A DNA stretch of 64,000 bases from Sulfurimonas sp. (GTDB taxonomy: Bacteria > Campylobacterota > Campylobacteria > Campylobacterales > Sulfurimonadaceae). A program made the position numbers and the translations under genes. The notes beneath the pieces are model-generated. The model made no database searches, was not told the DNA's origin, and saw only the letters and a list, made by a program, of their open reading frames with translations. Below, one piece after another: positions 43,981-47,480 of this stretch. Every line of letters starts with the position of its first letter. The stretch's first letter is position 1. The stretch is taken from the NCBI RefSeq assembly GCF_026196735.1, contig NZ_JAPHUF010000007.1, positions 124,001 through 188,000 of the forward strand. The letters are read 5' to 3'.

Positions 43981-44547
43981 ATGGCAACTATCTCAATGAG
44001 TGATATCAAAAAAAATGTTCGTCTAATTGTAGGCGAAGTTCCTTGCAAAGTAGTAGAATTTCAGCATGTTAAACCAGGTAAGGGTGCAGCCTTTGTTCGT
44101 ATGAAGGCAAAAAGTTTTTTAAACGGCAGAATAGTTGAAAAAACTGTTCATGCAGGCGATAAATTTGAAGTTCCTGTAATTGACTACAAAACTATGCAGT
44201 ATCTTTATGATGATGGTGAAATGTACCAGTTTATGGATAATGAGACTTACGATCAGCTGGGTCTCACTTATGATCAATGCGATGATGCAGCTAAATGGTT
44301 AAAAGACGGAACTAATGTTGATATGATTTTTTATAAAGGTGATGCAATAAGTGTTGCTGTTCCCGATACAATGGAACTTATAGTTACAGAGACTCCTCCA
44401 AACTTTAAAGGTGATACTTCAAGCGGAAGCAAAAAGCCTGCTACTTTAGAGACCGGCGCAGTTGTTCAGGTGCCTTACCATGTGCTTGAGGGTGATCTTA
44501 TTAAAGTAAATACAGTTGATTGTGAGTTTTTAGGAAAAGTTAAATAA
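43981..44547 (+). CDS. efp: elongation factor P
   Basis: Relieves ribosome stalling at proline runs. The 188-residue protein has three beta-barrel domains. The tip lysine is K34 in KPGKGAAF, the residue beta-lysylated by EpmA/EpmB in many bacteria. The C-terminal EP signature region (VQVPYHVLEGDLIKVNT) is intact. AAAGGGTC precedes the ATG. It is followed after 21 bases by the PAS/PilZ-like gene. Confidence 0.97.
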   Translation: MATISMSDIKKNVRLIVGEVPCKVVEFQHVKPGKGAAFVRMKAKSFLNGRIVEKTVHAGDKFEVPVIDYKTMQYLYDDGEMYQFMDNETYDQLGLTYDQCDDAAKWLKDGTNVDMIFYKGDAISVAVPDTMELIVTETPPNFKGDTSSGSKKPATLETGAVVQVPYHVLEGDLIKVNTVDCEFLGKVK

Positions 44548-44568: not shown

Positions 44569-45546
44569 ATGATGACAGATTTTTCACTTTTTGATATTTT
44601 ACCAAATGGTGTGCTTATATTTAAAAACAAAAAAATAGAGTATATAAATCAGCATCTTACAGATATTTTGAGTATTGGTTATTTTAGCAGAAAAAATTCC
44701 GTTGAAATTATTCTCAGAATATTAAATGTCAAAAGCGAAGATGATTTATTTGATTTTTTTATTAATCATGATTATTTCAGTTCGAAAAAAAAAGTTATAC
44801 AGATAGAACACTCTCGTCATGCTGAATATGATGTTTTCACATTTACGCTGATTAATGACTTGTTGCTAAAAAAAGACCTACAAGTAAATGCAACGACTCA
44901 AAAAGTATATATAGACGAAAAAGTTGCCAAACATTTTAAACTAAACAACATACAAAAAGTTAATGTTCTAACCTTTTACAAGGGTGTTCCTATAAAAAAT
45001 ATTGGAAAAATAATTAGAATAAAAACGGACTCTATAGAAGTTGTAGTGAACTCAAAACATTCTATTTCCCTGCTGGAGAGAGATGATATTTTGTTAATGA
45101 TGAATACAAAAAAAGGTGCATCAGTACTGCATGGAAGTGTTGTAGATCATAACAAAAATACTTTTACAATTAAAAATTTTTATCTTTCAAATGATGATAT
45201 GCACCTCAGAAACGGACTAAGGGTTAAGTCTGACAACAATATGATAATAAATGTCAATGAACAAAACTTTAGAGTCTATGATATATCGACAAGAGGAATA
45301 AGTATTTATATAAGCAGTACTGAAGAGGAAGAGCTGTTAAAAAGTACAAAATCTGCGAAGCTTTTTTTAGATGACAAGGTATTGAACTTGAGTATGAGAT
45401 ATCTTAAAACAATCACTGAAAATGATAAAATATTGAAAATAGTATTTATCATATCATCTACAGAAAACGACAAATCAATTCTTAATCAGTATATAGTCAA
45501 CAAGCAAAATAAAATATTACGCGAAATTCACGACTATGTCGAATAG
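44569..45546 (+). CDS. PAS-like / PilZ-like signalling protein
   Basis: A 325-residue soluble protein. Residues 1-95 read as a PAS-like domain (FDILPNGVLIFKNKKIEYINQ). Residues ~120-200 form a beta-rich YcgR-like linker. The C-terminal ~110 residues resemble a PilZ domain, with GLRVK as the arginine half and YDISTRGISIYI as the D/NxSxxG half. If the RxxxR pair is really reduced to one Arg, binding of cyclic di-GMP may be weak. The ATG pair (44569, 44572) follows AAGGTT. The cellular target is unknown. The call is inferred from pattern. Confidence 0.7.
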   Translation: MMTDFSLFDILPNGVLIFKNKKIEYINQHLTDILSIGYFSRKNSVEIILRILNVKSEDDLFDFFINHDYFSSKKKVIQIEHSRHAEYDVFTFTLINDLLLKKDLQVNATTQKVYIDEKVAKHFKLNNIQKVNVLTFYKGVPIKNIGKIIRIKTDSIEVVVNSKHSISLLERDDILLMMNTKKGASVLHGSVVDHNKNTFTIKNFYLSNDDMHLRNGLRVKSDNNMIINVNEQNFRVYDISTRGISIYISSTEEEELLKSTKSAKLFLDDKVLNLSMRYLKTITENDKILKIVFIISSTENDKSILNQYIVNKQNKILREIHDYVE

Positions 45547-45614
45547 GGTTTTGTATCCATATTGAAACATAAGTATGTTATATTACGATTTAAATATTCA
45601 TAGATAGGAAGAAA

Positions 45615-47036
45615 ATGGGATTAAGCAACAAAAAATTACCAAAATTAGGGTTTTTATATCTTGATTATGTACTTAGGTTTTTCGATTATTCAAACTTTAA
45701 AGGGTGGCCGAATAAAATTGAAACTGTAACTTATCATTGGAAAAATGATAAAGATAGATTCATCAAAGAAGTTAAAAGAAAAAAAATCGATGTACTTATC
45801 GGTAATATTCCCGCTACTGCATATGAAACATTTAGAGAGATAGCTCGCGAACTTCCTCATGTTAGATTTATCCCCTCAATGGATACGCAATTTTCTAATA
45901 AATCTAAAGAAAATGTTACAAGATTTGCTTGGAAATACGACCTTCCAATTCCTAAAACATATATCTATTACAAGCATAAAAATGCAGATAAGTTTTTAAA
46001 AGAGTGCAAATATCCTAAAATAATAAAAAAATCTTACGGACCTTCAAACTACGGCGGATATTTTGTTCATAAAGTCGATAATTATCAAGAAGCAAGAGCG
46101 CTTTTTGACGAGAAGAAGTATCATCCACAGTATTTTCAAGATTTTATACCAATGGAAGCAGATATCCGTGTAATGCTGATAGGGCACAAACCGGTTTGTG
46201 CATTTTGGAGACGCGCGCCTGAGGGAGAGTGGTTGACTAACACTTCTCAAGGTGGTAGTATGGATTATATGAATGTTCCAAAAAGCGTACTTGACCTTGC
46301 TGTAAAAACAAGCAAAGCTGCAAAAGCTGAGTATTGGGCTTGTGATATTGCTTATGGAAGAGATGGTAAAGTAAGAATTTTAGAGTGTGCTACTGCATTT
46401 GCCGCATTTCCATACATACGAGACTGGATTGGTCAGTATATAATGTGGAGTCTGAGCGAAGGCAGATTTAAAAAGCCGCATATGCCAATGTTTAACTGGG
46501 AAGAGTTAGGCAAATTAGACAGCTCTATTCTTAGAACTCTTAGACATATCACTTTTGGCAAGTACACCCCAAGTTATGATAGTGAATACTTTGGCAAAAA
46601 GAAAAAAATTTATGGCAATAGTGAAGTTTATCTGCACACTCTGGATGAAAAATATAAAGTTTATGATATTAAACCAAGAACTGAAGAAGAGTGGCCAAGT
46701 GAAACATTTAATTATCAAGATAATCTTGCCCTAAAAGTATCAAAAAAATCATCAAAACTAAAATTGCCCAAAAAGCAAGATGTGCCCAAGCCAACGGATG
46801 AATCATCAGAATCCGTTGAAGTTGCTATATCTATGACAGAAGATGAAGTGCTAGATTTTTTGACATCTGTCAATGGTATAGGAGCAGCAAAAGCTAAAAA
46901 CATTGTTCAACACTTTGGAGGCGCTTATGAGGTTGTAGGTGCATTAAGTCAAAACCCTATGCTAATAGCGGATGTTAAGGGTATAACTGAAAAAATAGCC
47001 AAAAATATTTCACAAAAGTGGAGTGAACTAAACTAG
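45615..47036 (+). CDS. ATP-grasp (RimK-like) protein fused to a C-terminal helix-hairpin-helix domain
   Basis: A 473-residue soluble protein. Residues ~1-95 are a pre-ATP-grasp domain. Residues ~100-290 form the RimK-like ATP-grasp fold: nucleotide Lys in IKKSYGPSNYGG, FIPMEADIRVMLIGHKPV, RAPEGEWLTNTSQGGS, then CDIAYGRDGKVRILE257. The metal motif ExN reads E257-C-A259, so the usual Asn is Ala. A variable linker (about 335-410) leads to two helix-hairpin-helix units (NGIGAAKAKNI and KGITEKIAKNI) like those of RuvA or XPF, which bind DNA. I know of no function for this combination. It is monocistronic. Confidence 0.88.
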   Translation: MGLSNKKLPKLGFLYLDYVLRFFDYSNFKGWPNKIETVTYHWKNDKDRFIKEVKRKKIDVLIGNIPATAYETFREIARELPHVRFIPSMDTQFSNKSKENVTRFAWKYDLPIPKTYIYYKHKNADKFLKECKYPKIIKKSYGPSNYGGYFVHKVDNYQEARALFDEKKYHPQYFQDFIPMEADIRVMLIGHKPVCAFWRRAPEGEWLTNTSQGGSMDYMNVPKSVLDLAVKTSKAAKAEYWACDIAYGRDGKVRILECATAFAAFPYIRDWIGQYIMWSLSEGRFKKPHMPMFNWEELGKLDSSILRTLRHITFGKYTPSYDSEYFGKKKKIYGNSEVYLHTLDEKYKVYDIKPRTEEEWPSETFNYQDNLALKVSKKSSKLKLPKKQDVPKPTDESSESVEVAISMTEDEVLDFLTSVNGIGAAKAKNIVQHFGGAYEVVGALSQNPMLIADVKGITEKIAKNISQKWSELN

Positions 47037-47117: not shown

Positions 47118-47480
47118 ATGCTTAAATTAATATTTTTATCAGCTTTTTTTACTCTTATTCTTATTATGCCTTTGAACGCCAGAGGCACATTTAAGGGACA
47201 AAAAATCTACCTAAAAGAGTGCAGAACCTGTCATATGGGCAGTAAGATTTTTTTAAACAAGTATACATTAGATGAGTGGGAAAAAGCACTAAGAAGCTCT
47301 GATACGCTGGCTTATGTGCATTTAAGCAAAAATGTAAAAAATGTTAACTCCAAAGATGGAACTATTAAAGATTCTCACTCTTATTTTAAAAGTAATAAAT
47401 ACAAAAAACAATACCATCATCTTAAAAACTTTATAATAGAATTTGTCAGAAAGAATGATAAAAATTTTTATAATCAATAA
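47118..47480 (+). CDS. small secreted monoheme c-type cytochrome-like protein (paralogue of 102-443)
   Basis: A 120-residue protein with a signal peptide (residues 1-21, ending LNA) and heme motif CRTCH at C35-H39. It shares KGQ (residues 26-28), EW (53-54), His68 and YFKSNKY followed by HHLKNF with the protein at 102-443, so both belong to one small family. Its TAAAGG ribosome site is 9 bases before the ATG. It lies alone between the ATP-grasp gene and dnaE. The redox partner is unknown. Confidence 0.75.
   Translation: MLKLIFLSAFFTLILIMPLNARGTFKGQKIYLKECRTCHMGSKIFLNKYTLDEWEKALRSSDTLAYVHLSKNVKNVNSKDGTIKDSHSYFKSNKYKKQYHHLKNFIIEFVRKNDKNFYNQ

Follow-up and report, generated by a model that had tools for sequence, protein, structure and literature searches.

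The gene at 45615..47036 on the forward strand of the window, meaning the whole 64,000-nucleotide stretch of Sulfurimonas DNA that was analysed, encodes a RimK-like ATP-grasp protein with a helix-hairpin-helix (HhH) tail, here termed B. Most relatives of B were found in a module of four genes, coding for an M20 peptidase, a RimK-like ligase (A), B itself and an M14 carboxypeptidase, and the copy in the window is a detached B near efp. The computation establishes that B belongs to this module, that the genes co-occur, which domain families are present and which residues are conserved. The explanation we favour, with moderate confidence, is that the four genes form an intracellular writer/eraser module, probably glutamyl, in which B would be a second ATP-grasp subunit with an (HhH)2 tail. 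The enzyme families are known ones, and the combination was not found recorded among the open-licence literature matches listed, where neither the module nor a fusion of a ligase with HhH appeared in the titles or the starts of the abstracts. A term search of an ATP-grasp survey (PMC4431377) found no M14, M20, carboxypeptidase or helix-hairpin. Among the relatives of B, none was found that has an established function.

Mapping of the four query proteins covered the window and 131 loci (132 records), and open reading frames (ORFs) of 80 aa or more were clustered in part of the window and in the 76 loci that reach 7 kb. In many of these loci M20, A, B and M14 are adjacent to one another. One genome may enter the mapped loci twice from two collections, so the locus counts are not independent. 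The M20 gene is on the same strand as its neighbours or, in Sulfurovum-type and gammaproteobacterial loci, divergently oriented. In the genome to which the window belongs, contig C16 has the order RimM-TrmD-RplS-M20-A-B-M14, a complete module with a second B. The original prediction had stated that no genomic neighbour explains B, and this holds inside the window, but the four-gene module is evident in relatives and elsewhere in the genome of the window. The comparison of orthologues and neighbourhoods proposed there brought out a second ligase with E-x-N, two metallo-carboxypeptidases and near-perfect co-occurrence. Among the clustered ORFs (at least 80 aa), no gene for a target, carrier or precursor was found between the module genes.

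Co-occurrence was assessed in 298 Campylobacterota genomes, using cut-offs of E ≤1e-20 for B, E ≤1e-50 for A and E ≤1e-80 for M14. B was present in 32 genomes, A in 31, M14 in 32 and all three in 30, with pairwise Fisher p values of 1e-37 to 8e-40 that are uncorrected for relatedness. The genomes with B span 15 of the 58 genera. One exception, G088, contains a B remnant with two stops (contig C1:157173-157475) and no match for A or M14, suggesting that the entire module has been lost there. Another genome (G263) has B and M14 and no A, one (G045) has A with an adjoining M20 on a 4.2 kb contig and neither B nor M14, and one (G299) has M14 only. M20-A-M14 with no B match was also found in G019, a 93% complete genome outside the 298-genome sample.

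When 60 genomes, the window's own and those of relatives, were searched, 34 yielded a match, in many cases to an ATP-grasp gene other than B. A collection of genomes yielded 142 candidate stretches, 92 of which encode a relative, and the best 80 of the 92 were retained. These were mainly from Sulfurimonas, Sulfurovum, Campylobacteraceae and Arcobacteraceae, together with one Pseudoalteromonas (L123) and one Endozoicomonas (L124). Among gammaproteobacteria, all four genes are present in the Pseudoalteromonas locus and in a Photobacterium (L131), and the Endozoicomonas locus, a contig of 3.1 kb, has A, B and M14. Plasmid records gave two matches, one in Photobacterium sp. DA100 (2.1 Mb, labelled as a plasmid) that covers the query (55.7%), the other a partial match in a Deinococcus record, annotated lysX. 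A viral origin was rejected, as no relative of B turned up in a single scan of viral contigs, and membership of a known anti-phage defence system was likewise rejected, with 0 PADLOC families matched by each of the four module proteins at E ≤0.001.

The partners of B point to addition and removal of amino acids. A retains the metal motif as E-V-N in 69 of 69 sequences, and its best curated matches were MptN (3.3e-40) and the RimK family (1.5e-36), both below their cut-offs (138 against 350 for the MptN model). The M20 peptidase has carboxypeptidase G2 as its best PDB match (1.7e-25) and metal-site motifs in 57 of 57 sequences, and the M14 protein is nearest to carboxypeptidases T and A4. The Ile255 position of carboxypeptidase A (CPA) sets the S1' preference. 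The M14 column aligned with the Ile of carboxypeptidase A4, which we take to be CPA position 255, holds Arg in 55 of 55 sequences, and carboxypeptidase O has Arg at the same place. Carboxypeptidase O prefers acidic residues, according to part of PMC6214572, a source in which neither arginine nor Arg275 was found by term search. From the relatives and one specificity residue only, we infer that glutamate is the likeliest residue: the curated models matched by A are for glutamate ligases, the M20 resembles carboxypeptidase G2 and the M14 has the Arg.

The upstream stop and the catalytic domain of M14 are separated by 4–29 residues, and by no more than 20 in 50 of 55 sequences. A signal peptide could scarcely be accommodated, and the protein is apparently leaderless and cytosolic. 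One M14 and its relatives (L041 9264-11852) gave matches to fn3 and DNRLRE-like domains, both just below the cut-offs; such domains are usual for secreted proteins.

Under the favoured explanation, A would be an active RimK-type ligase that uses ATP to place an amino acid, most likely L-glutamate, on a carboxylate of the target. The carboxylate would be activated as an acyl phosphate and the amine then joined, a course of reaction established for RimK-type enzymes. B would pair with A, either as a second ligase or as a regulatory subunit with an impaired metal site, and M14 and the carboxypeptidase G2-like M20 would take the added residues off again.

RimK and RimB, a bacterial pair of RimK-type ATP-grasp ligase and remover, would be a parallel to the module, and the Pseudomonas RimB strips Glu from RpsF and stimulates RimK, as described in part of PMC11957791. 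However, the module has two ligases where RimK/RimB has one, its removers are M14 and M20 metallopeptidases whereas RimB is a retropepsin, B has the HhH tail and an altered metal motif, and the C-terminus of ribosomal protein S6 in module carriers does not fit. S6, the protein classically modified by RimK, is disfavoured as the target, with a C-terminal Glu in 9 of 30 carriers versus 11 of 20 non-carriers, a rough comparison in which the carriers span several families and the non-carriers are all of the window's family. The S6 proteins of the window's genus (L135 1336-1782, L137-L185) frequently end in an extended stretch rich in Ala, Glu and Pro, whose length varies. A second parallel would be the eukaryotic TTLL glutamylases and cytosolic carboxypeptidases (CCP), the former ligase writers with an ATP-grasp fold and the latter erasers that belong to M14. 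Some TTLLs are inactive alone and are probably part of complexes, according to part of PMC10499314. The module differs from TTLL/CCP in that there is no tubulin, the kinship is at superfamily level at most and glutamate is presumed.

B itself starts with an ATG at 45615, preceded by a putative ribosome-binding site read in the sequence (AGGAAG, 45606..45611, +), and its stop ends at 47036, giving a protein of 473 aa in which a RimK-like ATP-grasp region is followed by a linker and the (HhH)2 tail, all features lying on the forward strand. The Pfam RimK model matched residues 107–251 (8.8e-14, 52 bits against a gathering cut-off of 21), and B is a member of the RimK-like ATP-grasp superfamily. 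The best curated model was the RimK family alpha-L-glutamate ligase (4.8e-23), for which the score of 81.9 bits is below the cut-off of 143.4. Scores were also below the cut-offs for the LysX model TIGR02144 (76.8 bits, cut-off 275.6), the S6--L-glutamate ligase model PRK10446 (20.9 bits, cut-off 331) and the GAK system ATP-grasp model TIGR04356 (39.6 bits, cut-off 300).

Sequence relatives of B with solved structures include LysX, synapsin and RimK. A full-length AlphaFold model of B was poor overall (mean pLDDT 62.8, pTM 0.41), although the tail was for the most part scored around 90 or higher, and we make no claim from this model on the geometry of the active site. The modelling alignment was hand-picked from the 66 sequences listed and omitted 13 Sulfurovum-type B, leaving that clade under-sampled; alignments A1, A3 and A4 are also hand-picked subsets. 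L131 and L129 (a fragment) were among the rows left out. The best Foldseek matches of the full-length model were LysX and ArgX (3vpd, 3vpb), which are ligases of the amino-group carrier type, and RimK, at rmsd values of about 10–16 Å. The LysX pathway includes LysK, an M20-type hydrolase, but B scores far below the LysX cut-off.

An alignment of 46 B sequences revealed where conservation is concentrated. Invariant columns make up 53 of 105 in the N-terminal domain (residues 1–105, 45615..45929) and 102 of 225 in the ATP-grasp core (residues 106–330, 45930..46604). The linker (residues 331–404, 46605..46826) has 4 invariant columns in 74, and the low-conservation linker of about 75 residues described in the original prediction is thus present. 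The tail has none in 69 and is the most variable part of the protein.

The residues E257-C258-A259 (46383..46391) stand in place of the E-x-N metal motif, as had been pointed out from the sequence. All 99 distinct B proteins have E-C-A, the window copy included, and the extended motif E-C-A-T-A-F-A-A-F-P has no exception in this set, so the altered motif is a trait of the family. With the Asn of E-x-N absent in every member, catalysis by B is doubtful. The very strong conservation of the core does not look like decay, and K138, D183, R185, T208-N209-T210, D244 and E257 do not vary in any of the 46 sequences.

These findings bear on whether B is a pseudoenzyme, binding ATP without ligation and acting as a scaffold that regulates A or adapts it to a target, with the HhH tail as a docking element. 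This reading overlaps with our favoured explanation and we hold it, tentatively, to be a serious possibility. It accords with the uniform difference between the E-C-A of B and the E-V-N of A, with the ability of B to sit far from A and with the presence of two B copies in two genomes (G000 and G030). The set of invariant residues, however, goes beyond the apparent need of a mere scaffold, and the loss of one metal ligand need not end activity. The earlier suggestion that B may be a regulator using nucleotide binding could thus hold, with B as a possible partner of A that is itself a pseudoenzyme.

It is also possible, though somewhat doubtful, that the module works on a small molecule, with A and B extending a coenzyme or forming a di- or oligopeptide solute, M20 and M14 trimming or recycling the product, and HhH serving for dimerisation or packing only. 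The best curated match of A is a coenzyme ligase, MptN, and the module includes no gene for a protein target. Many carriers are Sulfurimonas and Sulfurovum metagenome-assembled genomes (MAGs), belonging to marine or hydrothermal lineages in which solutes matter. A precedent is found in MyfA and MyfB, a pair of ligases acting on one coenzyme, which build the polyglutamate tail of methylofuran (part of PMC8141765). On the other hand, no coenzyme or other core-biosynthesis gene is conserved in the module, and two trimming peptidases beside the ligases suggest reversal and not synthesis alone.

The position of the window copy suggests that B need not lie beside its partners. B was counted as alone if no A, M20 or M14 was centred within 3.5 kb, and by this rule 29 of 98 B are alone, some of them near contig ends. 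A core tree of B, built with FastTree from 98 of the 99 distinct B, placed the window copy in a set of nine (support 98), all without module neighbours. The alone state required 5 changes on the tree compared with 25.3 in shuffles. Six relatives of the same genus have a module without B, and the only B found in them is located elsewhere. Three of them (G001, G025 and G034) have M20-A-M14 with no B between and one B elsewhere, a fourth (G011) has M20-A-M14 and a B that follows efp instead, and in the remaining two (G062 and G175) the matches to A and M14 are separated by 37 and 35 bases, with B at a distance. Since B is separated from the module in several genomes it apparently works in trans, and the detached B of the window could serve A, M20 and M14 in this way.

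The efp gene for elongation factor P (EF-P) is upstream of B in the window (43981..44547, +), and an ORF of 325 aa with a weak PAS match (0.036) lies between the two (44569-45546, +). A small gene between B and dnaE (47118-47480, +) gave weak cytochrome c matches (7.5e-4, below cut-off). Both efp and B were found in 21 mapped loci, and in 20 of these efp precedes B on the same strand, the exception being L090. The stop-to-stop frames of efp and B are 62 or fewer bases apart in 14 of these 20 loci and 350 bases apart in L061, and four ORFs lie between them in L055. No ORF of at least 80 aa separates them in 15 of the 21, and the order efp-M20-A-B was found in three loci (L087, L088 and L092). 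The simplest history, we infer, is that the module once lay beside efp and B alone remained there.

This neighbourhood raises the question of whether the window B modifies EF-P, which has a Lys in its KPGKG loop, particularly as no EpmA or EpmB was found over cut-off in the window genome. We consider this improbable: most other mapped loci (many on short contigs) show no efp near B, one gene separates efp and B in the window, and B is in just 32 of 298 genomes whereas EF-P is, to our knowledge, near-universal. A search for EarP carries no weight, as no control was matched.

The tail of B (residues 405–473, 46827..47033) was examined using both sequence and structure. Pfam HHH_5 matched residues 415–466 of the window B at 7.8e-6, with 26.7 bits just below the cut-off of 27, and it matches 44 of 46 B of the wider family at E ≤0.1. 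Among 21 hand-picked, more diverse B, HHH_5 was found in 15 and HHH_3 in 8 (best 4.4e-27) at E ≤0.5. Modelled alone, the tail (73 aa) has a mean pLDDT of 89.3 and five helices. A Foldseek search with this model placed XPF, Hef and RuvA near the top, with no E-value under 0.001. The superposition on RuvA or XPF that had been proposed as a check was performed with VIA-align, giving for RuvA a Z of 11.1 and an rmsd of 2.1 Å over 67 residues, and a Z of 7.0–7.8 for XPF, ERCC1, DisA, UvrC and Hef, of which XPF/ERCC1/Hef lie at 7.4–7.8. SAM domains gave a Z of 6.1–7.5. For helical bundles a Z under about 13 can reflect a common arrangement and is ambiguous, and the assignment as HhH therefore rests on the fold and the sequence matches jointly.

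The tail is predicted to be an (HhH)2 domain with two hairpins in a five-helix fold, the arrangement of RuvA, XPF/ERCC1 and DisA, from which it differs in being attached to a ligase. With the Pfam RimK match to residues 107–251, the HHH_5 match and the tail model, the fusion of ATP-grasp and HhH put forward in the original prediction is real. The first hairpin is G421-I-G423 (46875..46883), followed by A424-A425-K426, and a second, K455-G-I457 (46977..46985), was assigned by visual inspection of the sequence and of the helix boundaries. G421, G423 and W469 are conserved in 98%, 98% and 93% of the 46 B, and lysine occupies the columns after the first hairpin at 74%, 96% and 91%. At those columns the window B has Ala-Ala-Lys, so two of the hairpin lysines are missing, and the net charge of its tail is -2 versus a family median of +4.

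The type of tail is not uniform. The clade of the window B has the HHH_5 type, and a ComEA-like tail is found in the clade to which the second B of this genome belongs (P0005: HHH_3 3.3e-4, with 21.1 bits against a cut-off of 27). B stops before the tail in three loci (L094, L098 and L124; about 390–412 aa), with no HhH in the three forward frames downstream, and A and M14 adjoin it in L094 and L124. G328 perhaps has a fourth tail-less B, with a match ending at profile position 390 of 471 in a frame of 418 aa. With some B lacking the tail and one clade having another type, the HhH tail is usual and not obligatory, and its type has changed. Three longer B of 506–514 aa (L020, L021 and L130) show, on visual inspection, a degenerate HhH stretch that is followed by a ComEA-like one; L074 is absent from the tail alignment (A6).

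The divergence of the tail and the partial loss of lysines in the window copy weaken the DNA-binding reading, and nucleic-acid binding by the tail may not be essential. That the HhH-like tail is a functionless product of chance fusion, as its variability, its absence from three loci and structural matches within the Z range open to helical bundles might suggest, is highly improbable given the conserved hairpin glycines (98%), two lysines at 96% and 91%, W469, the RuvA Z of 11.1, the HHH_5 matches in 44 of 46 B and the second HhH type in another clade.

Returning to the explanation of a reversible writer/eraser module, the HhH tail would bring the A-B pair to a nucleic acid or to a target protein associated with nucleic acid, and a ligase working at nucleic acid, one of the roles first suggested for B, is possible. 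A fuller version would have reversible glutamyl tagging anchored to DNA or RNA by the (HhH)2 tail of one of two paired ligases, with a nucleoid or translation protein gaining and losing acidic residues like tubulin in eukaryotes; we consider this version unlikely though worth stating. If the explanation is correct, Campylobacterota and a few gammaproteobacteria would have a four-gene module of ligases and carboxypeptidases for reversible tagging. It would include a near-obligate pair of ATP-grasp proteins, in one of which the metal site is altered without exception and a tail of nucleic-acid type is usual. There would be a direction for genes whose curated matches go no further than broad ligase and peptidase families, and the module would be a compact, testable bacterial counterpart to tubulin glutamylation.
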